A stretch of DNA of 57,218 nt from NCBI GenBank assembly GCA_019240405.1, contig JAFAYL010000018.1, forward strand, positions 1-57,218, read 5' to 3'. The notes beneath the pieces are model-generated. The model was not told where the DNA came from, made no database searches, and saw only the letters and a list, made by a program, of their open reading frames with translations. This document shows, in pieces, positions 1 through 57,218 of the stretch; position 1 is the stretch's first letter; each line of letters starts with the position of its first letter. This DNA is from Acidobacteriaceae bacterium. Its GTDB lineage: Bacteria > Acidobacteriota > Terriglobia > Bryobacterales > Bryobacteraceae. A program made the position numbers and the translations under genes.

Positions 1-564
1 TCATATCGGAAGCTGCTTGTTGCGCCGCAAAGCTTGCGAAGCGGTTTGGAACGCTTAATCCGGCGCGAAATTGAGCGTCATCGGGAACACGGCGACGGGC
101 GGCTCATCTTTAAAATGAATGCTCTCGAGGATGCCGGGATGATTCGAGTCCTCTACGAGGCATCGCAAGCGGGCGTAGAGATCGACTTGATTGTTCGCGG
201 CGTGTGCTCGTTGCGGCCGGGCATTCCGGGAGTCAGCGAGACTATTCGCGTGAGAAGCATCCTCGGGCGGTTTCTCGAGCATAGCCGCATTTTCTATTTC
301 GGTAACGGCGGTGATGAAATCATTTATCTCGGAAGCGCCGATCTTATGCCGCGCAATCTGAACCGGAGAGTGGAGGTTCTGTTTCCGGTGCAAGATCACG
401 CTTTGGTTCGGCGGCTGCGGGACAGGATACTCGCAAAATATTTGGACGATGTTGTGGCCGCCCGCATCATGCAGCCCGATGGAAGCTACACGCGGCCAAA
501 ACGGCAAGCGGGCAGAAAGCCGGTTGCGAGTCAGATGTGGTTTCTCAAGCGTCACGAAGCCTGA
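1..564 (+). CDS. ppk1: Polyphosphate kinase 1, C-terminal part (5' end outside window)
   Basis: The reading frame is open from base 1, so the gene begins upstream; 187 residues are visible. Polyphosphate kinase reversibly moves the terminal phosphate of ATP onto inorganic polyphosphate. The visible part covers the C-terminal phospholipase-D-like domains: YRKLLVAP near the edge, KMNALEDAG, the stretch FLEHSRIFYF holding the second conserved His (His592 region in E. coli), and SADLMPRNLNRRVEV. The usual SADWM motif reads SADLM here. The gene ends 22 bases before the PhoR-type kinase on the same strand, a common ppk/pho neighbourhood, so co-transcription is likely. Identity is clear; only the 5' end is missing. 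Confidence 0.95.
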   Translation, partial: SYRKLLVAPQSLRSGLERLIRREIERHREHGDGRLIFKMNALEDAGMIRVLYEASQAGVEIDLIVRGVCSLRPGIPGVSETIRVRSILGRFLEHSRIFYFGNGGDEIIYLGSADLMPRNLNRRVEVLFPVQDHALVRRLRDRILAKYLDDVVAARIMQPDGSYTRPKRQAGRKPVASQMWFLKRHEA

Positions 565-586: not shown

Positions 587-1963
587 ATGACGACCATTAC
601 GGCACGAAGGATCGCTGCCGCCTGGCTCTCGCTTCTCCTGGTTTGCCTCGCACTCGGAAGTTTATGGCTTTGGCCTGATCTGATACCGGAGCGCGCTAAT
701 CCAGCGCTATTCAAGCTGGCCCTGTTGCTGGCGATGATGGGTGCGACGGGGCTGAGTGCAATCTATTTGCTCTTCCGGACGTGGTCAATACATGCAGGCA
801 AACTGCGAAGATTTGCCGATTCTCCGCTCGAGGCCGAAATTGACTTTCCCAACGACGGTCCTCAGGAGCTACGAGAGCTCTCACTGGCAATGAAGGGGAG
901 GGCGGAGCGCGTCCGGCAGGTGATCGGGCGAGCGAATCTCGAAGAATCGCGTCTCGAAACGATACTTGCTGCAATGACCGAAGGTGTGCTTGCGGTAGAT
1001 CCGGCATTGCGCGTTGTATTTTGCAACGACGCGTTTGCTCGCGCATTTAACATTCGTACGCCGCTTGGCGATAGCAGGAGCCTTTTTGAAATTGTCCGGG
1101 AGCCTGCTTTGCGAGACATTCTCGACCGGGTGTTACAGAAGGGCGCGGCAGAAAGAGATCGTTTCCAGCTTCCAGCCGCGGGCGGGCGTTGGTTTGAAGC
1201 TCATGCTTTGCCGCTAGGGAATGGGCGGGCAACTGGAGCGGTGGTCGTGCTTCATGACATCACGGACCTGCAGCGCCAAGAACAGGTTCGGAAGGATTTT
1301 GTGGCCGATGTTTCGCATGAGTTGAGAACTCCGCTTGCAGCAATACGCGGTTATACGGAGACGCTGCTTGACGGAGCGCTCGAAGACACCAATAATAACC
1401 GGAAGTTCATCGAGATCATATTGGCCCATACAATCCGCCTGAATAACATCGCGTCCGATCTGCTGATTTTGTCGGATCTCGACTCGGGTGCAGGGCCGGG
1501 AGCGCCCGAACGTGTTTCCCTGCGCGAAGTCATCGCGTCAGCTCTCCATACGGTTCAAAGCGAAGCAGCGCTGCGGAATGTGCAGTTAAAACAGGGTGAG
1601 ATGGACCAGTGCAGTGTTGCCGGTTACCGGTTCCGGCTCGAGCAGGCATTAGTGAATTTGCTAGATAATGCAGTGAAGTTTAACCGTCCGGGTGGAGAAG
1701 TTTCAGTCGAATGCCTTCACGCCGAGAATGGCTGGGTGCGTGTGACGGTCCGCGATACCGGAATCGGCATCGCGAGTGAAGATCTAAAGCGAGTTTTCGA
1801 GCGATTTTATCGGGTAGATAAAGCGCGGTCGCGCCCCACGGGAGGGACCGGGCTTGGATTGCCGATTGTGAAAGAAATCATCGAGCGAATGGGGGGTTCG
1901 GTTCAGGTGGAAAGTCAACTCGGTCAGGGGTCGACATTCACGATTATGCTGAAGGCGAATTAG
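587..1963 (+). CDS. phoR: PhoR-type phosphate regulon sensor histidine kinase
   Basis: A 458-residue membrane sensor kinase. Two hydrophobic segments (about 10-30 and 40-63) are followed by a HAMP-like linker, a PAS domain (about 120-230), a HisKA domain with His244 in DVSHELRTPLA, and a HATPase domain with N box LVNLLDNAVKFN (355-366), G1 DTGIG and G2 GGTGLGL. This layout is that of PhoR, which phosphorylates PhoB when phosphate is scarce. The position just after ppk and in the same region as pst-phoU supports the name. No phoB is visible and may lie upstream. The stop codon interlocks with that of the convergent S9 peptidase gene. A sequence-only call could also be a generic PAS kinase. Confidence 0.85.
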   Translation: MTTITARRIAAAWLSLLLVCLALGSLWLWPDLIPERANPALFKLALLLAMMGATGLSAIYLLFRTWSIHAGKLRRFADSPLEAEIDFPNDGPQELRELSLAMKGRAERVRQVIGRANLEESRLETILAAMTEGVLAVDPALRVVFCNDAFARAFNIRTPLGDSRSLFEIVREPALRDILDRVLQKGAAERDRFQLPAAGGRWFEAHALPLGNGRATGAVVVLHDITDLQRQEQVRKDFVADVSHELRTPLAAIRGYTETLLDGALEDTNNNRKFIEIILAHTIRLNNIASDLLILSDLDSGAGPGAPERVSLREVIASALHTVQSEAALRNVQLKQGEMDQCSVAGYRFRLEQALVNLLDNAVKFNRPGGEVSVECLHAENGWVRVTVRDTGIGIASEDLKRVFERFYRVDKARSRPTGGTGLGLPIVKEIIERMGGSVQVESQLGQGSTFTIMLKAN

Positions 1964-3957
1964 AGCGTTCCTGCGTCCGCTTTATCCTTCGCTGCCGGTG
2001 CGGCCTCGCCTTTCAGGTATTTGTCGAACCAGTCGATCGTACGCCGGGTCGAGTCAATCTGGTTCTCCCGTTTTGCGAATCCATGGCCCTCGTTCGAGTA
2101 GTAATGAACGTCCACGGTCCGCCCCTCCTTTTTGAGGATGTCGACGACTTGCTGCGCCTCTTCTTTCGGGACGCGGGGATCGTTGTCTCCCTGTAAAACG
2201 AGCAACGGTGCTGTTTCGTTGCGAATATAAGTGATCGGTGAATCCTCTTCGTAGATTTTTCGGTTCTCTTCCGGATTGCCGAGCAAGCCTTTGAGGTACT
2301 CATTCAGTGAGGGGTCAGAGTTCTTAAGCATAGTGCCCCAACTGATGATTCCGTACTCTTCAACGGCCGCGGCCCACACCTCGGGAGCCTTCCCGATGGC
2401 AATTAAGGTCATAAACCCGCCGTAAGATCCCCCAGTGATTCCGATTTTCTTGGGGTCTACGTAGCCAGTCGCCTTTAGGAAATCCACTGCTGCAAGCTCG
2501 TCTTTTAGGTCGCCTCCGCCGAGATCCTGAAAATTAGCTTTTTGAAAATCGAGACCATACCCAGTCGAACCGCGGGGATTCGGCGCAATGCAAATATAGC
2601 CGCGCGTAACCAAAGCTTGCACGCGGGAATTCCAATAATCGACCATCTGACCGGTAGGGCCGCCATGAGGAATGACGAGCGCCGGATTCGCAGCATCGCG
2701 CTTCAAATTGAAAGGAATCCACAGCAGTGCGCTGATGATTTTTCCATCGAAAGTCTTGTAATGAATAATCTGAGATGGCGGCAAAGGGATCGCCTGCAAA
2801 CTCGCGATTGTAGAGAAAGTCAGTTGGTTGGCGTGGTGCCGCGCCAAATCATACACCCAAAGATCTCCCGGTTGATTCGACGCCTCATGCGAAACGATCG
2901 CGCGATCGCTTTGGGGAGCGAACTCAGTTGGATTGCCAGAAAAATAATTGAGACCGTGCAGCAGATCGAGTTTTTCCGCGCGATTGGTTGAGCAATCTAC
3001 GAGGTATGCATTCGTGACGCCATCTTCATTTACGGTGTACGTGTAGTTCTTTCCGTCAGGTGAGAAGTTACCCGAAGACGCTTCCCACTTCAGATCCGTC
3101 ACCCAGGTCAGCTTTTTAGAGGCGAGGTCCAGCAAGGCAACATTCATATAGCCGCCCTTGGCATCTGAGCTCAACAGCAGCGTGCGGCCGTCCGGCGAGA
3201 GCGAGGAGGCAAGATAGCGAATTGTCCCTTGATGTGAAGTTAGGTTCTCGGCCTTTCCTGTCGCTACATCGATGCGATAAATGTCGGCATCGGTGAAAGG
3301 AGGATTCACACGGTTGGCGTAGATGGTTTTCGCGTTTTTACTCCAGGCGACCGTGCCCCAGGAATAGCCGGCCTGTTGCTCGTTAGTCAGTTTATGAACT
3401 TTGCGCGTTTTCCAATCGAGCAGTGAGATATCGTACGACGTGGCCTCCTTTGGTTTGTAAGACAGCGAAATGGTCTGCCCATCTGGGGACCAGATAGGAT
3501 TCAGCTCACGTATGTCCGGAGTATTTGTGAGATTGATCGGTTGGCCGCCGTCGCTGGGAATGGCATAAAGATCATAGAGCTCATTGCCTGCCTGGTCTTG
3601 CTGATAAACGATCCACTTGCCATCGGGGGACCACGCCGCGCCCGATTGAACGTCATCGGATTGCGTGAGCTGCACTGGCCATCCGCCTGAAGCACGCACT
3701 TTCCAAAGATTGAAGCGGCCCGATATATCGGCGGTGAATAAGATCTGCTTGCCGTCAGGCGACCAAGCAGCACCGAACACGCTGCGAGTGTAGTAAAGGT
3801 CATCAATGGGAGCAGGCCGCGCGCCGGCGTTCGATGCAGACGTTACAGAGCGAGGGTCAGTCAGAACACGGTCATCCGGTCCAGTAGCCGCATTTAAGAT
3901 TGAATAAAAACAGCATCCGATTCCGATCAGCCGCGACACGGCAACTTCGATTCGCAT
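1960..3957 (-). CDS. S9 family peptidase (acylaminoacyl-peptidase/dipeptidyl-peptidase type), secreted
   Basis: A serine peptidase of about 665 residues. I place the start at 3957 because AAGGAGG sits 4 bases upstream on the minus strand; an ATG 13 codons earlier has no such site. A signal peptide (MRIEVAVSRLIGIGCCFYS...) suggests export. The N-terminal half carries repeated WSPDG blades of a PD40-type propeller that gates the active site. The C-terminal half is an alpha/beta hydrolase with GGSYGG (Ser about 511), GDNDPRVP (Asp about 593) and EGHGF (His about 625). The family removes short peptides or blocked residues from peptide N termini. Substrate is unknown. The stop codon TAA (1962-1960) overlaps the PhoR stop, leaving no room for a terminator. 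Confidence 0.9.
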   Translation of the reverse strand: MRIEVAVSRLIGIGCCFYSILNAATGPDDRVLTDPRSVTSASNAGARPAPIDDLYYTRSVFGAAWSPDGKQILFTADISGRFNLWKVRASGGWPVQLTQSDDVQSGAAWSPDGKWIVYQQDQAGNELYDLYAIPSDGGQPINLTNTPDIRELNPIWSPDGQTISLSYKPKEATSYDISLLDWKTRKVHKLTNEQQAGYSWGTVAWSKNAKTIYANRVNPPFTDADIYRIDVATGKAENLTSHQGTIRYLASSLSPDGRTLLLSSDAKGGYMNVALLDLASKKLTWVTDLKWEASSGNFSPDGKNYTYTVNEDGVTNAYLVDCSTNRAEKLDLLHGLNYFSGNPTEFAPQSDRAIVSHEASNQPGDLWVYDLARHHANQLTFSTIASLQAIPLPPSQIIHYKTFDGKIISALLWIPFNLKRDAANPALVIPHGGPTGQMVDYWNSRVQALVTRGYICIAPNPRGSTGYGLDFQKANFQDLGGGDLKDELAAVDFLKATGYVDPKKIGITGGSYGGFMTLIAIGKAPEVWAAAVEEYGIISWGTMLKNSDPSLNEYLKGLLGNPEENRKIYEEDSPITYIRNETAPLLVLQGDNDPRVPKEEAQQVVDILKKEGRTVDVHYYSNEGHGFAKRENQIDSTRRTIDWFDKYLKGEAAPAAKDKADAGTL

Positions 3958-4002
3958 TTTGCCTCCTTGTCTGGATCGCGGGGTATACTTTATCAAATTT
4001 CC

Positions 4003-4776
4003 GTGCGAATTTCGAAAACCTGTGGCGCTGTACTGATCGTGATCGCATCGGTGTTATTGTGCGGAACCAGGACGCCGAAGCTGCGCTACGACATGCCTGG
4101 CATTGTTCTCTGGGCTTGGGAACGGCCTGAAGATTTGCGTTTCATCGACACGAGCCAGATCGGGATTGCCTTTCTTGCGGCTACGGCGTCAATCTCGCGA
4201 GAGGGAAGTGTTGCCTTCCGTCCCCGAACTCAGCGGCTCGAATTACCTGCGCGTGCGGCGGTACTGCCCGTGATTCGCATCGAATCATCACTTCAGTTTC
4301 GAAATAGTCGAATTGGGCCGGTGCAAGCCGAACCGTTAATCGCCGGAATAAGAGAAATTGCCGCACTTCCAGATGTGCGTGGAATTCAAATCGATTTCGA
4401 TGCGCGCAAGTCAGAGCGCGATTTTTATCGCGGCCTGCTCGAATCAATTCGAGCCAGTACTTCGAAGCCGATTGGGATCACGGCGCTGGCATCCTGGTGC
4501 GCTGGAGACCAGTGGCTGGGGCGTGAGCCCATCGTTGAGGCTGTTCCGATGTTCTTTAGAATGGGCCGGAACGAGTCTCGGGAGATGGCGGTTCAGAGCT
4601 CCGTGTGCCAGTCGTCGATCGGCTTATCAACGGACGAACCTTGGCCTGCGAAGCGCTCTGCGGCAGTTAAGCGGATCTATTTGTTTAATCCCCGAGCATG
4701 GTTGCGCGCGGATTACACGGCGGCACTCGCACGAATTAAGAGTTGGAATGAAATCTCGAAATCTAATTTTCGCTAG
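4003..4776 (+). CDS. DUF3142 domain protein, probably exported
   Basis: About 257 residues if it starts at GTG 4003, directly before a hydrophobic stretch (VLIVIASVLLCG) that looks like a signal or lipoprotein leader; upstream in-frame starts give an implausible N terminus. The pattern PGIVLWAWERPEDLRFID near the start and GIQIDFDARKSERDFYRGLL in the middle match my recollection of DUF3142, a family without a known function. There is no clear ribosome site, and a TATACT element at 3984-3989 lies so close that the message might be nearly leaderless. The last 29 bases overlap the start of the next gene, so the two are probably translated together. It is divergent from the S9 peptidase with only 45 bases between them. 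Confidence 0.7.
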   Translation: MRISKTCGAVLIVIASVLLCGTRTPKLRYDMPGIVLWAWERPEDLRFIDTSQIGIAFLAATASISREGSVAFRPRTQRLELPARAAVLPVIRIESSLQFRNSRIGPVQAEPLIAGIREIAALPDVRGIQIDFDARKSERDFYRGLLESIRASTSKPIGITALASWCAGDQWLGREPIVEAVPMFFRMGRNESREMAVQSSVCQSSIGLSTDEPWPAKRSAAVKRIYLFNPRAWLRADYTAALARIKSWNEISKSNFR

Positions 4777-6883
4777 CGTCTGCACGGCGGCAATCGTGTT
4801 TGCTTGTGGAATCGACGTGGGCCCTTTTTTTGAGCCAGATGATTTTCCAGAGGACGAAACTGCTTTTCGGCGAGGCAATCTCGGGCTCCTCACACCCGCC
4901 TTGAACAAAACTGACGAGCTCATCGCGTTCCGCTACCTGAGCGGGTTGACGTTTGAAAATCCCGACGCAATCACGGACCCACAACGCCCAAGCACGCCGG
5001 GCGGTGAAGAAAATGAACTGGGAATAAACGTATGGATGAAAGCGCGGAAGGAGGTATCCGATCTTCCTGCGCCCGGCTATATCAGCACATACCGAACGAA
5101 TCGACTATCCGGGGAGTATGTTTATTACGAAAACTGTCTTGATGATTCGTTCATCACGGCGGCTCGAACCTTGAGGGATCGCCGCCAAAAATACGCGTCA
5201 GCTCCCGCATTCCGGGATTGGGTCCAGGCACAAGATCAGGTGTTTCAAAACTGTGGCGGCGACAAGAATCCTCTCTATCCGGCAGATGCGGCTACCGGCG
5301 CTTCAGATCTTGTGCGCGCCGACCGGCGATATCAGATTGCCGCGGCGCATTTCTATGCTCAGGATCTTGAAACCGCAGCGCGGCTTTTCACCGAAATCGG
5401 CGAAGACGCAAAATCGCCCTGGCAAAATATCGGCCATTACATGGTGGGGCGAACGCTATTACGCGAAGTATCGCTTCAAAAGAATGCGGGTGCACGAGAT
5501 GCGGCGCGCCGGCAATTTCAGGAAATCGCCGATAATCCGGCAGCCGGTTCCCTCCGCGATTCCGCGCGAGGGCTGCTCGAGCATCTGGCTGCGATCGATC
5601 ATTCTTCGCAAACAGTAGTGGCGATATCGAAGCAGTTGACTGCCCCTCACGCTTCCGCATCATTCAATGACACACTTCGAGAAGCCCGTTACGTGTTACT
5701 GGCCGACAGTTTTCACCCCGCACTCTCGGGTCCCGATATTCCCGAACCGTTTGATTGGGTACAAACGCTGGAAAATGGGACCGCGCAGCACGCGCTTGAT
5801 CAGTGGCAAACGCGACATTCACTGCCGTGGCTAACATTAGCCTTGATTTACACAAACGGAAAAGATGAATTGACTCCGGAGTTGATTAAGGAAGCCGGCC
5901 GCCTGCCCTCGACATCACCTGCATTCGCGACAGCAACATACAACGCGATCCGGTTGCGCATCGAGCGTGGCGAGATTAATGAGCCCCGAGAACAGGTCGA
6001 ACGGCTTTTGAAAGAAGATACAAAACAACCTGCATCGGTTATCAACCCATGGCGCGCGGAGCGAATGCGGCTCGCAACCAGCTTCGACGATCTTTTGTCC
6101 TGGGCGACCCGCACTCCCCTCTATGCCAGCCTGTACACGAATGACGCAAATGCTGGATCGCCCGTACTAGCCGAAGACTCCACTTATCTTTTGAATTACC
6201 GCGTGCCTCTCGTGAAACTTGCGGAAGCCGCTCACAGCAAGCGCCTGCCTCCGTGGTCGGCCGCTGACGTGGCGTTAGCTGCCTGGACGCGCGCCTTTAT
6301 GCTCGAAAATCGCACGGTAATGAGAGACATGGCTCCGATCATCGCGAAACAGCATCCCGATTGGAGTCCCAAACTGATTCCTCCATCCGGAACGGGATTT
6401 GAAGCCTGGAAATTCCAGGCTGCGCTTCTCGTCGCGAGCAATTCCGCATTTCAACCGCTGGTGCCGGTCGATTACCGAAGGCATATCTCACAAGGTTCTT
6501 GGTGGTGCGCCATCTCTCGGCCAGTCTGGAACCAGCCCGGACCAGAGCCGCCGAGCATTGCATGGTGCTTGCCGGCAATTTTCGAGCCGGGTGAGCCCGT
6601 GATTTCAAAGACGGAGGGCAACCGGGCTGACGAAGAGATTGAGCGCCTTGAGCGGATGGGCTCGGCGCAGTCGGTCGTCGGGCCGATCATCCTGCGTTGG
6701 GCCAAATCACACCCGGAAGATCCGCTCGTGCCTTTCTCGCTGCATCGTGTCGTAAGAGTTGTGCGTTACGGATGTGGAGTCGACCCGGCGAACGGCGAAA
6801 TTTCGAAGTCGGCATTTGATCTGCTCCATAAGCGCTATCCGAAAAACGAGTGGACAGCGAAAACGCCGTACTGGTTTAAATAA
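4748..6883 (+). CDS. Large lipoprotein-like hypothetical protein with helical-repeat middle region
   Basis: About 711 residues starting at ATG 4748, inside the end of the DUF3142 gene. The frame is open further upstream, but that part merely reads the DUF3142 gene out of frame. The N terminus (MKSRNLIFASVCTAAIVFACG) looks like a lipoprotein signal with the lipid-modified Cys at residue 20. Residues of roughly 170-300 (YQIAAAHFYAQDLETAARLF, NIGHYMVGRTLL) look like TPR-type helical pairs. I do not recognise the family. The overlap with the DUF3142 gene suggests the two proteins act together, perhaps at the cell envelope. The gene is followed by a perfect hairpin shared with the convergent receptor gene. 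Confidence 0.75.
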   Translation: MKSRNLIFASVCTAAIVFACGIDVGPFFEPDDFPEDETAFRRGNLGLLTPALNKTDELIAFRYLSGLTFENPDAITDPQRPSTPGGEENELGINVWMKARKEVSDLPAPGYISTYRTNRLSGEYVYYENCLDDSFITAARTLRDRRQKYASAPAFRDWVQAQDQVFQNCGGDKNPLYPADAATGASDLVRADRRYQIAAAHFYAQDLETAARLFTEIGEDAKSPWQNIGHYMVGRTLLREVSLQKNAGARDAARRQFQEIADNPAAGSLRDSARGLLEHLAAIDHSSQTVVAISKQLTAPHASASFNDTLREARYVLLADSFHPALSGPDIPEPFDWVQTLENGTAQHALDQWQTRHSLPWLTLALIYTNGKDELTPELIKEAGRLPSTSPAFATATYNAIRLRIERGEINEPREQVERLLKEDTKQPASVINPWRAERMRLATSFDDLLSWATRTPLYASLYTNDANAGSPVLAEDSTYLLNYRVPLVKLAEAAHSKRLPPWSAADVALAAWTRAFMLENRTVMRDMAPIIAKQHPDWSPKLIPPSGTGFEAWKFQAALLVASNSAFQPLVPVDYRRHISQGSWWCAISRPVWNQPGPEPPSIAWCLPAIFEPGEPVISKTEGNRADEEIERLERMGSAQSVVGPIILRWAKSHPEDPLVPFSLHRVVRVVRYGCGVDPANGEISKSAFDLLHKRYPKNEWTAKTPYWFK

Positions 6884-6884
6884 A

Positions 6885-6898
6885 GGCTCCGCGGAGCC
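6885..6898 (-). terminator. Palindromic hairpin between convergent genes
   Basis: GGCTCCGCGGAGCC is a perfect 14-base palindrome lying between the stop codons of the lipoprotein gene and the TonB-type receptor. Read on the minus strand it is followed by TTTATTTAAA, so it fits a factor-independent terminator for the receptor gene. On the plus strand no T run follows, so it would work poorly in that direction. Confidence 0.55.
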
Positions 6899-6904
6899 CT
6901 CGCC

Positions 6905-9900
6905 CTAGAAAGTCAATCGCAGAGCAAATTCGATCTGCCGTTCAGAGCCCGGAACGGTATTGTTGATCACAGCAAATGTTGAATCGAAGAAACTGCCGTC
7001 CGGGTTTTGGAACCGGGGATGGTTGGCGATGTTGTAGAACTCCGAGCGAAACTCAAGCTTTGTGCGTTCGTAAATCGCGAACGCTTTGAAAACGGAGAGA
7101 TCTAACGTAACCCAGCCCGGTCCGCGCAACAGATCGCGTCCCGAAGTGCCTGGGCCAATATAGACGCCGCCCGGTGTTTGCGGAGGCGCAGAAAAGGCTG
7201 CCTTATTGAAGTACTCTTCTGTGGTGCCAAAGATCTGGACAGGCCCCACAACGTCCGCGCGTTCGCTCCCGTTGACGTACACGCTAAACGGAAGCCCGTC
7301 AAAGGCGGTAAGAATGCCGTTTAACTGCCATCCGCCGAAAATCAGATCCACGGGCTTCGACCATCCGTTCCCGAACTGTTTTCCTCTGCCGAACGGCAGC
7401 TCATAGAGGCTGCTGAAGACGAAAACGTAGGGTTGATCGTACACCGAACGGGCCCGCTCCAAGCTCAAATTGCGGCTATCTTGCGGCAACGAAGCATCGA
7501 AAGCGCCAGGGCTGTCGTCAATCGAGCTCGACCATGTAAACGAAGCGCGGAATTGAAATCCATTCGTAAGCCGCCTCTCGAATTCAGCCTGTAGCGAATT
7601 GTAAACAGAATTACCAATGTTTGCCTGCACAATCACGCTGCCCAAATTCGGATACAGCTTGGACCCGGAGGGCGCGTTGAAGAACTGCTGGTTGGCATCG
7701 TAATAAGTGGTGAGCTTGTGGCCTTCTGTGCCCACATAGCCGACGCGGAACACTGAATTGCCAGGTAGCTGGTGCTGGATTTGGAAGTTGTATTCGTTTA
7801 CATAAGAGTTGCGATTATTGAACAGTGCCGCGACAACGCCTATGTTTTTCGGATTGGTGAAGCTGAATCCAGGCGCGATTCCCGCCGGGGGCAGCGGACC
7901 CGTGGTAAGTGTTGGGTCATTAGTGCCAATCGGCGCTTCTCCGGAGAGAGAAAACCGATATCCCTGGGTGTAGCCGTAAACCTGTTCTCCGCTGTAGGGC
8001 TGGTTTTGCGCGAGCTGATTACTGATTCCGCCACGATCAATGAAGTAGAACGTACCAAAACCTCCGCGCATAACCGTGGTGCCCTTCCCGGTGAGATCGT
8101 AAGCGAAGCCGACCCGTGGCGCGACATTGTTCCAGTCTGTTTTGACGAGAGAAGGCGGCAATCCGAAACTTCCCGCCTGGGCTGGCGTTATAAGCGCGCC
8201 GGTTGCCAGATCGAAATTTGTCTGCCGCCCAAACTGCTCGCGGGGCCAGGTGAGGACGTCATAACGCAAGCCGAGATTTAAGGTCAGCCGGGGTGATACT
8301 CGCCAGTCATCTTGCCCATACACGCCGTTCTCCCAGCTTCGCGTGCCAAAGTAGCCGGTCTGCGCGCCGATCTGATACTGATCGAGAAAACCGGCCAGAA
8401 TGTCGGCGCTCTCAAAGCCTGTCGATCCAGCGGCGCAGCCATCGCCGCTATCGGTTCCGTTTCCGCATAAGAAAAAGTACCCTTTGCCCGCGATCGGCCG
8501 AAACAGATTCACCTGCCGCCAAATTAGGTTGGTCCCGAACTTGAGTGTGTGAGTTCCCTTGATCAAGCTCACGCTGTCCGCAAGCTGATAGCTATTCTGT
8601 GGAACCAAATACGCACCGTAGTCGCCCGTATAGCTAATCTGCGAGCCGTAACCGCCGATCAAGGCGCCGCCGCCCAGCTCTGGACTTGTGTTGGCGTTCG
8701 GGATACCTAGGTTCTTCGAGAGGGGGATGTTGCCGAAGGGCGGATTATAGCCGAAGAATTCTCGTGTGTAAGCAAGCCGCAGCTCGTTCACCACCGTGGC
8801 TGAGAACGTGTGTGTTTCGCCCACGACGATCCCGCGCGGCTGATTGAAATTGGAGCCCGAACCGAATCCCGCGGGCAGAGTTGGAAAGTCCGAAGTAGTG
8901 AGGGAGGAATCGTCGCCGTAGCTGAACCTGCCGAAGATCTGATTCTTTTCGTTCAACAGATAATCGACTCTGATATCCCAATCGCGGAAATCCTGAATCT
9001 GATTACGCGTAGTGATGTAGTTCTGCTCAACGCCGGGTAAGTTCGGCAGCGGAAACGCATTGAGATAGGTTTGACCAACCTTGTTGATTTGCCCGGGCGG
9101 GATAACGTTGCCGGAATAAGGCAATCCGGTCATGACATCGCGTATGACGATTGGCGCGCTCAGCCCCGAAACGGCAGGATTCAGCAACTCCGAAAAATTT
9201 CCGCTCCGCATGAGCATTGTGGGCACCGTGACATGATCCAAACTCACAGGAAAAAACTGCCGGAGACCTGAGAAGTCGCCAAAAACGAAAAGTTTGTTCT
9301 TGACAATGGGAAACCCTAGCGTGCCGCCGAACTGATGCCGTCGAAATTCGGTTTTCGTTGGCGCGAATGTCGGGCGCGCATCGAGAGCCGAATTTCGCAG
9401 AAACCAGAATGCTGAGCCATGGATGTCGTTTGTGCCTGAACGGATCACTGTGTTCACAATCGCGCCGCCGGCACGCCCGAACTCTGCGGGAGCAATGTTA
9501 GTCTGCACGGTAAATTCCTGTATCGCATCCGCGGGAGGGAAGAAGACGACTGTGTTCACTAAGCTTTCGTTGTTATCGGCTCCGTCCAGAATGAAATTAT
9601 TCGCTTGCGGTCGAAGCCCGTTCACCACCAGCGAAGACCCGCCCACATTGCCGTAGCGAAAGGTCTCGGCATTCCCTTGCGTGCCGGATTGAATGCCGTT
9701 CGGGTTTCCACGCGTCACACCAGGAACCAACGTGGCGAGCTGAGTGAAATTACGCCCGTTGATCGGCAGATCCGTGATCTGCTTGCCTTGTATGGTGGCG
9801 GCAATCGAGGACGAAGTTGCCTCGACGAGTCCCGCCTGCTCCGATACTTCGACCGTTTCTGTAACTGCGCCGGGCTCGAGGCCGATTGCGGCGCTCGCCA

Positions 9901-10216
9901 CTATGCCCGCATCCACGCGTACGTCCTGAGTGTAAGTTTTGAAACCTTGGGCCGTTGCTGTAATTGTGTATTCGCCAACCGGCAGCGCGGAGATCGCAAA
10001 CGTGCCATCGGCGCCGCTCGTAGCTTTAAACTCTTGTGCAGTAGCCTTCGATACGACTTGGACAGTCACATCCGGCACCACTGCGCCCGTGGGATCGGTC
10101 ACCTTGCCTTCCAGGCGAGAGGTGTCGTTTTGCGCGAGAGCGAGAGAAGCGAATAAGAGAAGAGTGATCCAAAGAACACAAGCTTGGCGGAAGTCCGAGC
10201 GGCTGTCGAATAACAT
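6905..10216 (-). CDS. TonB-dependent receptor with carboxypeptidase-regulatory domain (Oar-like)
   Basis: An outer-membrane protein of 1103 residues. A signal peptide (about 1-28, ending SLALAQ) precedes a carboxypeptidase-regulatory-like beta-sandwich (about 30-115; LEGKVTDPTGAVVPDVTVQV), a plug domain (about 120-260; ITDLPINGRNFTQLATLVPGV) and a long beta-barrel ending in the aromatic residue typical of outer-membrane proteins (RLTF). This architecture is greatly expanded in Acidobacteriota, where members are thought to take up or bind polymers or siderophore-like compounds; the ligand here cannot be told. No clear ribosome site precedes the ATG at 10216, so the start may differ by a few codons. 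It stands alone, convergent with the lipoprotein gene. Confidence 0.92.
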   Translation of the reverse strand: MLFDSRSDFRQACVLWITLLLFASLALAQNDTSRLEGKVTDPTGAVVPDVTVQVVSKATAQEFKATSGADGTFAISALPVGEYTITATAQGFKTYTQDVRVDAGIVASAAIGLEPGAVTETVEVSEQAGLVEATSSSIAATIQGKQITDLPINGRNFTQLATLVPGVTRGNPNGIQSGTQGNAETFRYGNVGGSSLVVNGLRPQANNFILDGADNNESLVNTVVFFPPADAIQEFTVQTNIAPAEFGRAGGAIVNTVIRSGTNDIHGSAFWFLRNSALDARPTFAPTKTEFRRHQFGGTLGFPIVKNKLFVFGDFSGLRQFFPVSLDHVTVPTMLMRSGNFSELLNPAVSGLSAPIVIRDVMTGLPYSGNVIPPGQINKVGQTYLNAFPLPNLPGVEQNYITTRNQIQDFRDWDIRVDYLLNEKNQIFGRFSYGDDSSLTTSDFPTLPAGFGSGSNFNQPRGIVVGETHTFSATVVNELRLAYTREFFGYNPPFGNIPLSKNLGIPNANTSPELGGGALIGGYGSQISYTGDYGAYLVPQNSYQLADSVSLIKGTHTLKFGTNLIWRQVNLFRPIAGKGYFFLCGNGTDSGDGCAAGSTGFESADILAGFLDQYQIGAQTGYFGTRSWENGVYGQDDWRVSPRLTLNLGLRYDVLTWPREQFGRQTNFDLATGALITPAQAGSFGLPPSLVKTDWNNVAPRVGFAYDLTGKGTTVMRGGFGTFYFIDRGGISNQLAQNQPYSGEQVYGYTQGYRFSLSGEAPIGTNDPTLTTGPLPPAGIAPGFSFTNPKNIGVVAALFNNRNSYVNEYNFQIQHQLPGNSVFRVGYVGTEGHKLTTYYDANQQFFNAPSGSKLYPNLGSVIVQANIGNSVYNSLQAEFERRLTNGFQFRASFTWSSSIDDSPGAFDASLPQDSRNLSLERARSVYDQPYVFVFSSLYELPFGRGKQFGNGWSKPVDLIFGGWQLNGILTAFDGLPFSVYVNGSERADVVGPVQIFGTTEEYFNKAAFSAPPQTPGGVYIGPGTSGRDLLRGPGWVTLDLSVFKAFAIYERTKLEFRSEFYNIANHPRFQNPDGSFFDSTFAVINNTVPGSERQIEFALRLTF

Positions 10217-10313
10217 ATATCTGCTGTATCAGCAATTCAAGGCGGAATCAAATCATTTTCCGGTTCTAAATTGCTAAGTTAGGCGGTGTACAAATCAAGG
10301 TAATTTCAACCTT

Positions 10314-10385
10314 ATGACACAGCACCGGCAAAACATTTCATCGGGTGCGAAATGGGAAGACGTTATCGGATACCCGAGCCGATAG
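10314..10385 (+). pseudogene. 5' remnant of a Rid-family (YjgF/YER057c) gene
   Basis: Translation from ATG 10314 gives 23 residues (beginning MTQHRQNISSGAKWEDVIGY) and then a stop. It matches the first 20 or so residues of the intact Rid-family protein encoded at 13654 (MAPHRQNISSGAKWEDIVGY). The bases just before the ATG are also alike (CAACCTTATG versus GAACCTTATG). Several differences are silent or conservative (GTTATCGGATAC versus ATAGTCGGCTAT), which suggests the fragment was once a working gene that diverged under selection before it was cut off. Similarity ends where the RHS fragment begins. Confidence 0.7.
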
Positions 10386-11095
10386 AATCATTCCGCTCCA
10401 AACGGTCGTAGAAATAATCGACGATTCCGCCGCCATTCGCCGCGCTCTCATTCGCCTGAATCAGGCGGTTCTCGGCGTCATACAAAAGCGTGTCGCCGAA
10501 CGAAGTTTGGTTGCCGGAGTAGTCGTACGAATTCCCCGTGATCTGATTCGCTCCGTTGAACACGCTTCCTGCCGTAGGCATCATGGGCAACGTGGGAAGG
10601 CCGGAATTCGCCGTGTTCCACATATTGCCGTATTGATCGTAGTTGAAATTCTGCGACCAGCCGCCTGAATCGGTCACGCTCGTCAGGCGGTTCACGCCAT
10701 CGTAGCCGAAGTTCTGCGTGAAATTTAAGAATCCGGGATAGTTCGGTCCGCCGTAGTTCAGCGACAGCGATTTCAGGTTCCCGTTCCCCGCCCAATTCCA
10801 TGTCGCCGTAAACAACTGGTCGTTCGGGCTGTTGCTCACCATATCCGAAGACCAGGAAGGCAGCAACAGAGAACCGTAGGTTGCCTGCCGCCACAAATTA
10901 TTGCCATAGCGATATTGCGTGAGTTGCCCGGAAGCTGCATAGGTGGGATTCGAAAAATAGTTCACCTGCGTGCCGTAGTTCCCGGTGATCTGCGATATCT
11001 GATTCGTCGAACCGTAATCCGTGGTCACGACGCGCCCGGAGGGATAGGTCTCCGAAGTCAGCGAGCCGGCCAGATTGTAGCCGTACAGAAAACTG
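10363..11095 (-). pseudogene. Orphan RHS/YD-repeat core fragment, truncated at both ends
   Basis: This stretch encodes YD-repeat residues that parallel residues 39-271 of the complete RHS protein at 11595-13601, with roughly nine in ten residues identical by eye and one single-residue gap. DNA similarity runs from about 10399 to 11095, matching about 12785 to 13486. It has no start of its own: the similarity begins 13 bases after the stop of the small membrane protein gene. At its other end the RHS frame runs into the antisense of the Rid remnant and stops. It lacks the RHS hyperconserved core end and any C-terminal domain. In RHS loci such orphan tips mark past swaps of C-terminal domains. 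Confidence 0.75.
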
Positions 11096-11108
11096 TGCGC
11101 CGCACTTG

Positions 11109-11567
11109 CTAAGCCCGGTCCGCAGCCTCCTTGGTCTTCGGTAATCTCAGGAGCGCGAGTTTCGCGGCGATAGAATATGCAATGGAGCCTAGAAAGGCAT
11201 CGGTGGGAATAGTGTAAACGCATTCCTGAGACGTGCATCCGGGGCCAAATAAACTCTCCCACACATACTGCATTCTCGGGCCCGGGTCCCCAGCTGCGTT
11301 CCACATTTTCGCCAAGGATATTGCAGTGCAAAGGAATAAAACGAGACCTGCTATCCAAACGAAAACGGCCGCAGTACGCTGCCGGAGTCGGGTAATCCAG
11401 TAACCTGCGATTCCAGCCGCAAGGATCGAGAACAGAGCAAGTTGCCGAAACGGCGCTCCGTAATAAAACCTATCCAGAACCATATCGCAGACGAAGCCGA
11501 TAACCATGGCAAGGGTCGCGAGCACAAGCTCAACAGCATAGTCTAAACTCCAGGTCTCTCGCGGCAT
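11109..11567 (-). CDS. Small multi-pass membrane protein, candidate RHS immunity protein
   Basis: 152 residues with three clear hydrophobic segments (about 9-31, 40-59 and 66-90) and a fourth weaker one (about 124-142). The start at 11567 has GAGGA about 8 bases upstream. It lies 27 bases downstream of the RHS gene on the same strand, exactly where RHS and CDI loci keep the gene for the protein that neutralises the toxic C-terminal domain. A partial RHS core follows within about 15 bases. I do not recognise the family; the immunity role is an inference from position, and a membrane location would suit a partner acting on the envelope. Confidence 0.6.
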   Translation of the reverse strand: MPRETWSLDYAVELVLATLAMVIGFVCDMVLDRFYYGAPFRQLALFSILAAGIAGYWITRLRQRTAAVFVWIAGLVLFLCTAISLAKMWNAAGDPGPRMQYVWESLFGPGCTSQECVYTIPTDAFLGSIAYSIAAKLALLRLPKTKEAADRA

Positions 11568-11594
11568 CGTGTGATCCTCAATCCCGCAGACCCG

Positions 11595-13601
11595 TCACAT
11601 TTCGACTGGCGGTGGTGGCGCAAGTAACAAGCGGAGCAGGTCAAAGATGTCACACCCGCCTGCTATCGGGCCGTAAGTGATCGTTGAACTGGCTCCCCCG
11701 CCGCCACCGCCGCGCCCACCCTTCGATCCGCTATTTGCTGGTGGCTGCTTTTGTGGGGTTGGAAGCACCCGAGGCGTTGAACAAGGCGACCCAGATCGTT
11801 GCTGTAACAAGGCCGCCTGCGTTCTGAGAATGCAATTGACGTCGTGGCCGCAAGATGTGGACCAAGCGGTATCATAAGGCTCCGAGGGCGCGCCCGAGGG
11901 GATCGCATAGCTCCCATTGGCGAAGATCATCATTGGATTAGTACTGCCCCGCGGTAAAGTCCCGCTGAAAGAAAATGCCCCAGTGAAGCTTCCGGGAATC
12001 GAATAGGTGATGCTCCCAATGCTGGATTGTTCGGTCGATGTAAGGCTCCCCCACGCTGAGGCGAGCGTCTGCGCGCCGCCGCTAAACGTAAATATATTTA
12101 CCGATTGGCCTGCCGAGGTTTGCGCAATTGCAGAACGGATTCCTTGAATAGCGGCGTTGACGTCGCCCCCTCCGCCGATCACTTGTGCCACTCCTGTGGC
12201 AACGTTTGTTCCTTCATACGGAAAAACGGCGATTTTGTTTGCCGAAAAATTCGTCACAGAGCTCGAATCACCGGGATTCATAGTGATGCCATAAATGGCC
12301 ACGTCGCAGGCCCCAGACGGGTCAACCGAGTTGAGCGGATTGTTTCTGACATAACTGTACGCATTCCACGTTTGTGGGTCGCTCAGGTCCGCTCCTGCAT
12401 TCATCGGGTCGGGACTGTTGAATCTGCCTTGCGCGTTCGCGAAATATCGCGCATTGAAGAAGTCCTGCCCGGTTTCGAAATCTCTGATTTGGCCGGTGAA
12501 TTTCTGACTGACTCCATCGTCAGAGCCCCATTCCGAAAGCCGTCCTGCCATTCCACCGGGAACTTCGCCGCCGAACGGCGTCCAGTCATGGCGCGCGACA
12601 ATGTTCGCGCTTCCATCGGTCACCAAGCGGGTGCTGCCCAGATGATCGAAACTCAAATAGCAGGTTGCGCAAATCGGTGTGCCGACTTCCGGGCTGCTCG
12701 AATATTCCGCGACCATTTGTCCAAAAGCGTCGTAGACGTACACGGTGGTGAAGTCGCCCATGATCAATTTCTCGACTCTCTGGCCCAAACCGTCATAGAA
12801 ATAATCCCCGATTCCGCCGCCGTTCGCGGCACTTTCGTTCGCCTGAATCAGGCGATTCTCGGCATCATACGAAAGCGTGTCGCCGCCAAAGGAAATTTGA
12901 TTCCCGGAGTAGTCGTACGAATTCCCGGTGATCTGATTCGCGTCGTTGAACACGCTGCCGGCGGTCAGCATCATGGGCAGTGTGGGCAGTCTCGAATTTC
13001 CTGTGTTCCACATATTGCCGTACTGATCGTAGCCGAAGCTCTGCGACCAGCCGCCTGAATCGGTCACGCTCGTCAGCCGGTTCACGCCGTCATAGGAAAA
13101 GTTTTGCGTGAAATTCAAAAGCCCCGTGTAGTTCGGACCGCCGAAGTTGAGCGACATCGATTTCAGGTTCCCGTTCCCCGCCCAGTTCCAGATCGCCGCA
13201 AACAACTGCTGATTCGTGCTGTTATTCACCATATCCGCAGACCAGGAAGGCAGCAACAGAGAGCCGTAGGTCGCCTGCCGCCACAAATTATTGCCGTAGC
13301 GATATTGCGTGAGTTGCCCGGAAGCTGCATACGTGGGATTCGAAAAATAATTCACCTGCGTGCCGTAATTCCCGGTGACCTGCGATACCTGATTCGTCGC
13401 GCCATAACTGGTGGTCACGACGCGTCCGGAAGGATAGGTCTCCGAAGTCAGCGAGCCGGCCAGATTGTAGCCATAAAGAAAACTGTACAATTGTCCGTCC
13501 GTCGTCTGATCTGACGCCGTGACCCGGCCTAGCGCATCGTAGGCCGTGTAGTCGAACCCCGACGCTGCGAGCTGATTGGCGTCGTTGAACACTTTGTGCA
13601 T
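11595..13601 (-). CDS. RHS/YD-repeat protein with variable C-terminal domain; N-terminally short
   Basis: 668 residues. YD repeats (about 1-300; YDALGRVT, YDAENRLIQANES, YDQYGNM) lead into the RHS-associated core (DHLGSTRLVTDG about 319-329; YFANAQGRFNSPDPMNAG; NAYSYVRNNPLNSVDPSG ending about 430). The remaining 238 residues form a different domain with FTFSGGAQ (Ser507), which resembles an alpha/beta-hydrolase nucleophile elbow, CGHDVNC (His586), a run of glycines (about 628-636) and a hydrophobic Pro-rich tail. A stop codon lies directly before the ATG, and there is no signal peptide or secretion domain, so this is probably the tail of a once larger RHS gene. It may still act as an effector if another protein delivers it. 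Confidence 0.8.
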   Translation of the reverse strand: MHKVFNDANQLAASGFDYTAYDALGRVTASDQTTDGQLYSFLYGYNLAGSLTSETYPSGRVVTTSYGATNQVSQVTGNYGTQVNYFSNPTYAASGQLTQYRYGNNLWRQATYGSLLLPSWSADMVNNSTNQQLFAAIWNWAGNGNLKSMSLNFGGPNYTGLLNFTQNFSYDGVNRLTSVTDSGGWSQSFGYDQYGNMWNTGNSRLPTLPMMLTAGSVFNDANQITGNSYDYSGNQISFGGDTLSYDAENRLIQANESAANGGGIGDYFYDGLGQRVEKLIMGDFTTVYVYDAFGQMVAEYSSSPEVGTPICATCYLSFDHLGSTRLVTDGSANIVARHDWTPFGGEVPGGMAGRLSEWGSDDGVSQKFTGQIRDFETGQDFFNARYFANAQGRFNSPDPMNAGADLSDPQTWNAYSYVRNNPLNSVDPSGACDVAIYGITMNPGDSSSVTNFSANKIAVFPYEGTNVATGVAQVIGGGGDVNAAIQGIRSAIAQTSAGQSVNIFTFSGGAQTLASAWGSLTSTEQSSIGSITYSIPGSFTGAFSFSGTLPRGSTNPMMIFANGSYAIPSGAPSEPYDTAWSTSCGHDVNCILRTQAALLQQRSGSPCSTPRVLPTPQKQPPANSGSKGGRGGGGGGASSTITYGPIAGGCDIFDLLRLLLAPPPPVEM

Positions 13602-13653
13602 TTATAGGGTAGCGTCGAAAACGAAATCGGACATTGCGGTACCCTCGAACCTT

Positions 13654-14043
13654 ATGGCACCGCACCGGCAAAACATTTCATCGGGAGCGAAATGGGAAGA
13701 CATAGTCGGCTATAGCCGCGCGGTTCGTGTCGGCTCTCGAATTTATCTCACTGGAACGACAGCGATCGACGAGAGCGGAAACATCGTTGGAGTAGATGAC
13801 GGCTACGCACAAACCGTGCAGGCGATTCGCAACATCGAACGCGCGCTCAAGCAAGCGGGCGCGACGCTGGAAGACGTAGTCCGGACACGCATGTTCGTCA
13901 CCGACATCAGCCGGTGGGAGGAATACGGGCGCGCGCATCGTGAGTTCTTCGGCGAGATCCGGCCTTGCGCCACTATGGTCGAGGTCCGGGCGCTGATCGA
14001 TCCCCAAATGCTGATTGAGATCGAGGTCGAGGCCGAGCTTTAA
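13654..14043 (+). CDS. Rid-family (YjgF/YER057c/UK114) protein, not classical RidA
   Basis: 129 residues starting at ATG 13654, with the fold markers GSRIYLTGTTAIDESGNIVG, AIRNIERALKQAGATLEDVV and MLIEIEVEAEL. RidA proteins hydrolyse reactive enamine/imine intermediates released by PLP enzymes. The Arg needed for that activity lies in ARSCVEVARL in E. coli RidA; here the matching stretch reads CATMVEVRAL, so the Arg is replaced by Ala. It therefore belongs to another Rid subgroup with unknown chemistry. It is divergent from the RHS gene and lies just upstream of pstS, from which a 95-base gap with a candidate Pho box separates it. A 5' remnant of a second copy lies at 10314. Confidence 0.85.
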   Translation: MAPHRQNISSGAKWEDIVGYSRAVRVGSRIYLTGTTAIDESGNIVGVDDGYAQTVQAIRNIERALKQAGATLEDVVRTRMFVTDISRWEEYGRAHREFFGEIRPCATMVEVRALIDPQMLIEIEVEAEL

Positions 14044-55953: not shown

Positions 55954-57218
55954 CTAACGCCGGCGAGACTCGCGCGTGACCCGGAAATCCGGACCGATAA
56001 ACGTCGTAATCGGCGGCTGATTGTAAATTTCGATGTTGCTGTCGATGCCTAGCTGAGTCGTAACAAGATTGTATCCCTGCGTGCTCTCCAGAATATACCA
56101 GCTCTGTGTAGGAGGGTCCCAGATACCAAAGTCCGCAAACCCATCCCCATCAAAATCGCCGCCGAGCGGAACATCTCCAGGCAAGCCAAATGCCCCTTCT
56201 ATAACATTTGAGTTATTGCTGGGAAGGATGAACCAAAAGCTGTTAGAGGTTCGCCACACTGCGAGGTCCGTTATTTTGTCGCCATCGAAATCGCTCGCGA
56301 CCGGCACATCCCCTGGCGCGCCCCATTGCTGAACTTCCTGTGTTCCATCGCTGCTTCGCAGGATGTACCAGTTCCCCTCTGAAGGCCGCCAGACTGCGAT
56401 ATCGGCGAATCCGTCTCCATCGTAATCGCCAATCACCGGAATGTCCCCGGGCGCGCCCCATTGCACAATCACTTGTTGATTGTTGCTGCTTTGCAAGATG
56501 TACCAGTTGCCCTCAGATGGCCGCCATACAACAAAATCTGTCTTCCCGTCGCGGTCGTAATCGAACGGGACGGGGATATCTCCAGGTGCACCCCATTGCT
56601 GCGTGTACGGCGTCGTTGGCGCGCTACTCGGGGTGACTAGCCAGTTGCCAGTTCTCGGGCTCCATACAACAGAGTCGAGCTGCCCGTCACCGTCGAAGTC
56701 CCCGAAGACGTTGAAGTAAACCAAGCCCCCCGGAATGTCTTCAGACAGGCTTGTCGGAGGCGGCGATTGTTGGAGGTAAGGAGCCGAGGGATTGCTGCTC
56801 GGAACAATATAAAGGTTCCCGTTCGATGGGCGCCAAACGGCGAGATCCGTGGTTCCATCATCGTCGTAATCGCCGGCCGCAGGTACGTCTCCCGGCGCGC
56901 CCCATTGCTCTACGTCTTCCGTTCCATCGGTGCTCCGCAAGATGTACCAGTTCCCTTCGGCTGGCCGCCATACCGTTATATCCGGCAGCCCGTCGCCGTC
57001 AAAATCGCCAACAACCGGAACATCGCCTGGCGCGCCCCATTGTTGCGTGACCTGAGTGCCGTTGCTGCTTTGGATGATGTACCACGTGCCATTCGAAGGA
57101 CGAAACACGGCAATGTCCTGTAATCCGTCGCCATCGTAATCCATTCCGACGGGGATGTCTCCCGGAATCCCAAACGGCTGAACGTTCTTAGTGCCGTTGC
57201 TGCTTTGGAGAATGTACC
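55954..57218 (-). CDS. FG-GAP/VCBS repeat protein, C-terminal part (5' end outside window)
   Basis: The frame is open through the right edge: reading from 57218, YILQSSNG runs on into the ATG at 57144, which is internal. About nine repeats of 45-46 residues are visible, each with DYDGDG-type calcium loops (D-x-D-G-D-G-x-x-D), then VWRPS-GNWYILQSS and QWGAPGDVPV. These FG-GAP repeats build a beta-propeller outside the cell, often for adhesion or polymer binding. One unit (about 56,700) has a PPPTSLSEDIPG variation. The final 30 residues (IGPDFRVTRESRRR) are different. Convergent with the GH57 gene. Confidence 0.85.
   Translation of the reverse strand, partial: YILQSSNGTKNVQPFGIPGDIPVGMDYDGDGLQDIAVFRPSNGTWYIIQSSNGTQVTQQWGAPGDVPVVGDFDGDGLPDITVWRPAEGNWYILRSTDGTEDVEQWGAPGDVPAAGDYDDDGTTDLAVWRPSNGNLYIVPSSNPSAPYLQQSPPPTSLSEDIPGGLVYFNVFGDFDGDGQLDSVVWSPRTGNWLVTPSSAPTTPYTQQWGAPGDIPVPFDYDRDGKTDFVVWRPSEGNWYILQSSNNQQVIVQWGAPGDIPVIGDYDGDGFADIAVWRPSEGNWYILRSSDGTQEVQQWGAPGDVPVASDFDGDKITDLAVWRTSNSFWFILPSNNSNVIEGAFGLPGDVPLGGDFDGDGFADFGIWDPPTQSWYILESTQGYNLVTTQLGIDSNIEIYNQPPITTFIGPDFRVTRESRRR
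56300..57218 (-). repeat. Tandem 135-138-base repeats within the FG-GAP gene
   Basis: The FG-GAP units are alike at the DNA level too: GGCGCGCCCCATTG (or GGTGCACCCCATTG) recurs at roughly 56,316, 56,450, 56,597, 56,896 and 57,031. The period matches the 45-46-residue protein repeat. These long, diverged units could recombine but are protein repeats, not a CRISPR array. Confidence 0.7.

Follow-up and report, generated by a model that had tools for sequence, protein, structure and literature searches.

How did a putative RHS toxin cassette, bracketed by two copies of part of its own RHS core, come to lie among host phosphate genes, and does it still work? We addressed this question in a 57,218-nucleotide stretch of DNA, hereafter the window, from an Acidobacteriaceae bacterium (GCA_019240405.1, contig JAFAYL010000018.1, positions 1 to 57,218, forward strand). 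The window lies on contig C15 of a genome (G000) of 4.45 Mb in 63 contigs; the assembly is incomplete, which limits every absence stated below for this genome. Positions 10373-13647 are probably a decaying fragment of an RHS tip array (the tip being the C-terminal domain that follows the DPSG hinge), stranded where it landed in the gene ridA; the landing would have duplicated the start of ridA without destroying the gene. The reading starts from direct observations: the repeats and truncations, the protein families, the duplicated ridA start, the separation of phoR from ridA, and the shuffled tips of relatives. The position beside phosphate genes looks like the place where the fragment landed.

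Inner repeat: A blastn self-comparison of the window aligned the two core copies (Table 1) in the same direction at 87.46% nucleotide identity (702 columns, 3 gap positions, E 0), and a second self-comparison recovered the repeat as two ungapped pieces. Both blocks are open in one common frame, with a single 3-nt gap in their alignment, and encode the same residue at 207 of 233 aligned codons (88.8%). These values bear out the initial annotation, which had described a same-direction core repeat with about nine in ten residues identical and had called for a base-level alignment. Judged by their divergence, the copies are old. The synonymous divergence (dS) is 0.47 and the non-synonymous divergence (dN) 0.060, a ratio of 0.127 (Nei-Gojobori, 233 codons), and 57 of the 87 differences fall at third codon positions. 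Compared with 12 outgroup cores, the 26 residue differences favour the main copy in 11 cases and the orphan in 11, with 4 ties. Identity varies from 37 to 48 per full 50-nt block and the longest identical run is 41 nt; recent gene conversion between the cores was rejected on the lack of a long near-identical tract.

Truncated RHS gene: The main copy belongs to a 668-residue open reading frame (ORF) whose TIGR03696 match ends at residue 430, the DPSG end of the core, as expected for an RHS core. An in-frame stop stands just before the ATG, which lies 430 residues before the end of the hinge. The ORF is not a full-length delivery shell: the N-terminal half is missing, and no hydrophobic N terminus or signal peptide is present, whereas the RHS protein of one relative (L093) has both the full-length shell and an N-terminal export signal. 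The orphan copy stops at the equivalent of residue ~273, and the region between the copies still encodes core residues 274-430, hinge included (~12312-12784). The block between the repeats had been described as the C-terminal domain plus a membrane gene; both are there, but so is this last third of the core. Likewise, the orphan does lack a toxin of its own, as had been proposed, but it also lacks the end of the core with the hinge, and hence not only the toxin.

Table 1. Coordinates of the features discussed; positions refer to the window unless another contig is given.
Feature	Position	Strand	Basis or remark
Polyphosphate kinase (ppk), C-terminal part; host context	34..564	+	Pfam PP_kinase_C E 4.4e-64
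phoR-like histidine kinase, host gene bordering the insertion on the left	587..1963	+	Pfam HATPase_c/HisKA/PAS
11.7-kb putative accessory insertion between phoR and ridA	1964..13647	.	phoR-ridA adjacency in relatives
Oar/TonB-type outer-membrane protein in the insertion	6905..10216	-	Pfam OMP_b-brl_4 E 8.4e-224
Dead 5' ridA fragment, left arm of outer repeat	10308..10372	+	~20 codons; runs into a stop
Orphan RHS core fragment	10398..11096	-	~residues 38-273 of 668-aa ORF; hinge and tip absent
152-aa membrane protein, probable immunity protein	11109..11567	-	matched by six-partner profile
N-terminally truncated RHS ORF, 668 aa	11595..13601	-	TIGR03696 E 5e-16, RHS_repeat E 1.3e-13
RHS C-terminal domain (tip) after DPSG	11595..12311	-	238 aa plus stop; alpha/beta-hydrolase-like family
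RHS core copy within 668-aa ORF, repeats 10398-11096	12785..13486	-	self-blastn
Right arm of outer repeat, start of intact ridA	13648..13712	+	window self-comparison
Intact ridA (RidA/YjgF/L-PSP)	13654..14043	+	Pfam Ribonuc_L-PSP E 1.2e-29
GGGGACGGAGCACTCATTCTACTGA box sites	G024 C1 987241, 2692889, 4803665, 4807714, 4809642		loci L099, L101, L103

Outer repeat: A second direct repeat, absent from the initial annotation, encloses the first; its 65-nt arms are 89% identical (58/65). The right arm is the start of intact ridA and the left arm runs into a stop after ~20 codons; the RHS unit therefore stands between a dead and a complete ridA. Across the 19 comparable codons we counted four amino-acid changes and two silent ones, a small sample. 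Ten of 17 genus genomes, this one included, match ridA at E 1e-20 or better, and the loci of eight relatives were compared after a match in G009 (48% identity) and a second match in G006 (42%) were left out. In these eight, ridA is 68-91% identical; the ppk part is 73-83% identical in six of the eight loci. The phoR gene ends within ~25 nt of ridA in seven; the eighth (G007) gave no phoR match. Neither the RHS protein nor the membrane protein has a match in any of the eight loci. Because phoR and ridA adjoin in seven relatives and none of the eight loci matches the RHS or membrane gene, the DNA between phoR and ridA in the window looks like an accessory insertion in this genome. It carries an S9 peptidase, an 841-residue protein, the Oar-type protein and the RHS unit; no transposase or integrase was found among six of its ORFs that were scanned. 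The 841-residue protein has matches in 24 of 150 genomes of the family, this one included; none of the others belongs to the same genus, some members of which the 150-genome draw may omit. To the left of the insertion lie the ppk end and phoR; to its right follow ridA and then phosphate-transport genes with phoU.

Tip and membrane gene: The tip matches no Pfam or NCBIfam model, its profile found only two matches among PDB sequences, both with E above 0.5, and PADLOC left both the RHS and the membrane protein unmatched. The predicted structure of a related tip (L097) shows a clear alpha/beta hydrolase fold, lipase/cutinase-like, and from this relative's model we take the tip family to be lipase/cutinase-like. 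The weak structural matches of the window tip's own model are headed by cutinases (E 0.056). The nucleophile-elbow Ser and the His occur in all eight aligned tips, the window's included. The triad acid is Asp in six of the eight and Asn in L080; the window tip has a gap there. A search of 396 genomes of the phylum with the tip profile added one further genome (G590). Where the same tip type occurs in relatives, it sits on cores only 29-65% identical to the window core.

Directly behind the tip, six of the seven modules of this tip type carry a membrane ORF of one kind, and since these modules share a similar membrane gene, the tip and the membrane gene are most likely a toxin plus immunity pair. 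Searched against a small database made of the window reading frames and 200 shuffles of the membrane protein, the profile of the six partner proteins matched the window membrane protein with 14.8 bits (E 4.6e-4); the best shuffle reached 7.2 bits (E 0.1). By hydropathy, each of these membrane proteins has two to four strong hydrophobic segments. Searched on its own, the membrane protein found matches in six of 250 genomes of the order, this one included; in Pfam it gave six matches at E 0.015-0.58, every one below the cut-off. Even alone, the gene may be expressed and give protection, since an orphan CdiI is known to be made.

Modules in relatives: RHS protein matches occur in 31 of 60 genomes, this one included, with many of the core matches stopping at the hinge (residue 430-440). 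We surveyed 34 hinges in 21 loci, the window among them; these were chosen for RHS or tip matches and so are not a random sample, and several end at contig ends. The open frame upstream of the hinge exceeds 1000 residues at three of the 34. Core repeats 86-100% identical precede different tips: at 86-89% in L099 (two of three tips begin alike), 95% over 167 nt in L100, 93% in L101, and 90-100% in L083 (two of three tips of one family). In L104 (100% over 250 nt) and L106 (89%) the contig ends, and in L060 (88-92%) a core-start remnant lies behind the tip; in all three the second tip is missing or not read. The check proposed by the initial annotation, that different C-terminal domains should follow DPSG on near-identical cores, thus came out as expected in L083, L099, L100 and L101. 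With the array layout of the relatives and the membrane gene of six same-tip modules, its view of a core-tip-immunity cassette bounded by core repeats stands. In L082 (4501-6119), between two RHS modules with different tips, lies a reverse transcriptase/maturase-like ORF, presumably of a group II intron.

Favoured reading: We propose that the piece holds parts of two RHS modules: one cut N-terminally (core end, DPSG hinge and lipase-like toxin tip), accompanied by a membrane immunity gene of its own, and a further one that begins but ends short of its hinge. The core copies would have diverged first, both coding under selection; the piece would then have landed at about codon 21 of ridA, duplicating at least 65 nt, so that a dead ridA start and an intact ridA now flank it. 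The contrast between the core ratio of 0.127 and the four changed versus two silent codons of the ridA repeat makes this order, with the cores diverging as coding sequence and the unit reaching ridA later, the simplest reading. Today the unit would be at most a silent donor cassette with a possibly expressed immunity gene. Judging from the fold, an active toxin of this tip type on a full-length RHS protein would most likely hydrolyse a neighbour's lipids or esters, and the membrane protein would protect the producer.

Several points weigh against this account. The reading frames of both core copies have stayed open, so some use may remain, and a full-length partner may be missing from the assembly, in which two contigs begin within RHS genes. 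The ridA repeat is short, and its pattern depends on seven base differences. We found neither a donor array nor a genome with the RHS unit and a single ridA, so insertion with duplication rests on one locus. As to the toxin pair, the window tip's own model is poor (predicted local distance difference test score 50) and has no PDB match at E 0.001 or better; the seventh module of its type (L080) has only an 88-residue ORF behind the tip and was left out of the profile; and in the 9 kb read at L086, the site of the membrane protein's best other match, no RHS match turned up.

Three other explanations can be set against landing in ridA. The best of them, which we still consider unlikely, is an in-place tandem duplication: an RHS gene divergent beside ridA would have had the stretch from its core to the ridA start duplicated and then partly deleted. 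Such an event would bring the ridA start up against the next core at its hinge side, as is observed at 10372/10398, and the outer and inner repeats are similarly diverged (10.8% and 12.5%). However, the expected spacer and core are absent to the left of the ridA fragment, and the inner repeat evolved under constraint while the outer apparently did not.

Distinctly less probable is the proposal of the initial annotation, a working or recently active exchange module in which recombination between cores replaces the tip-immunity cassette, an orphan core staying behind. Direct core repeats do surround the tip-immunity pair, and relatives carry such arrays with different tips. The N-terminal half is missing, however, no full-length RHS gene with a matching core was found in the assembly, the orphan lacks a hinge, the aligned Asp is missing from the tip, and both the longest identical run and the dS of 0.47 speak of old copies; the claim of present or recent activity does not hold. 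The only RHS matches in the window contig are the two core copies, and other RHS genes in the assembly are 31-66% identical to the window RHS. At the DNA level, core remnants elsewhere amount to one site (C20 3931-4462, L006/L095), with 97 nt at 93% identity to the main copy and ~61 nt at 77%. RHS genes seem to be broken by the assembly, because contigs C46 (10-324, N-terminal part, 1199-residue frame) and C21 (2-187, core end) begin inside them. For the window unit to act as a tip donor, there would have to be a full-length RHS gene that matches it.

An assembly or binning error that joined unrelated RHS repeats, or duplicated one, would fit the contigs that begin inside RHS genes but is very unlikely and was rejected, because the copies differ at 12.5% of bases with most codon differences at third positions, and at its two ends the insertion passes into phoR and ridA, members of a single host cluster.

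Known systems: The architecture is that of ordinary, known RHS tip arrays. In Jackson 2009 (PMC2935791), Enterobacteriaceae tip-displacement arrays carry core fragments as large direct repeats with dissimilar tips; core repeats in Serratia share 91.6% amino-acid identity, and most fragments lack a suitable start. The window resembles these in its direct core repeats around a tip cassette. It differs in three respects from the arrays as described there: upstream, no intact RHS gene of like kind was found (the displaced unit there follows an intact rhs gene of its own clade), the second core is tip-less, and the surroundings are a split ppk-phoR-ridA-pst cluster in which the ridA start is duplicated. 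The unit is also like the orphan CdiA-CT/CdiI and Rhs-CT/RhsI modules of Poole 2011 (PMC3150448), with a core remnant, a hinge, a detached, lineage-mobile tip, a small immunity gene directly downstream and no delivery part; unlike those, it has no full-length gene ahead in the assembly and a tip-less core fragment behind. Zhang 2012 (PMC3482391), a general treatment of polymorphic toxins that names acidobacteria, lists Tox-ABhydrolase-1/2/3 as alpha/beta-hydrolase toxin domains, two of them lipase-like. The tip family described here would be similar to these in type. According to the same work, immunity proteins are cytoplasmic but for a few (two-helix, secreted or transmembrane, lipoprotein), in contrast to the two to four hydrophobic segments of the partners found here. 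Against minimal lipases and cutinases (B. subtilis LipA, fungal cutinases), the tip family is 15-16% identical and RHS-fused, and the window tip, unlike those enzymes, has no aligned Asp. Among open-licence works, judged by title or the start of the abstract, we found no account of RHS repeats or toxins like these in Acidobacteria; nothing on Bryobacter rhs toxins was found in such works either. Two features stand out: the tip/immunity pair matches no family model of the searched libraries, and the landing site, where the start of ridA is duplicated, is unusual. With this locus, RHS tip arrays and the exchange of tips are documented for a lineage of soil Acidobacteriota, whose named relatives here are metagenome-assembled genomes of Bryobacterales, Bryobacteraceae and Terriglobia; the locus also offers a candidate new lipase-like toxin/immunity pair with a membrane protector, and gives one clear case of an array fragment in a host gene cluster, flanked by two copies of a gene start.

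Borders and mobility: It is a tentative and doubtful generalisation that fragments of such arrays travel as units and enter chromosomal genes unrelated to them, duplicating a long part of the target and regenerating it, with orphan toxin-immunity cassettes spreading without full-length RHS genes. Two other modules of this genome (L056, L057) have no direct repeat around them, and a general rule that RHS modules are flanked by host-gene pieces was rejected there. Non-RHS direct repeats surround modules in L101, L103, L105 and L106; they are box-like or interspersed rather than gene starts, and the one in L103 has 16 matches across its genome. In two relatives, modules are bordered by a short GGGGACG-type box. 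The 25-nt form GGGGACGGAGCACTCATTCTACTGA occurs five times in the 6.7 Mb of G024 C1 (up to 2 mismatches), every copy at most 2.4 kb from an RHS match and three of the five directly before a module. One copy precedes a Y1 transposase gene by ~41 nt (L099 10979-11674, Pfam Y1_Tnp E 5.6e-11); this gene is a candidate mover of modules in that relative. The related box GGGGACGTCTCACCCGTTTACTGAGTTT occurs 12 times in G009 (up to 3 mismatches; loci L082, L105 and L106, contigs C10, C170 and C115); ten copies are within ~2.3 kb of RHS matches, the two on C115 are not, and none was found in 11 other genomes searched. The border box has no match in the window or in G000, and therefore cannot explain this locus. 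At the right end of the window, a 396-residue FG-GAP repeat protein (55954-57144) contains internal DNA repeats of its own (56311-56463 versus 56891-57042, 79%).
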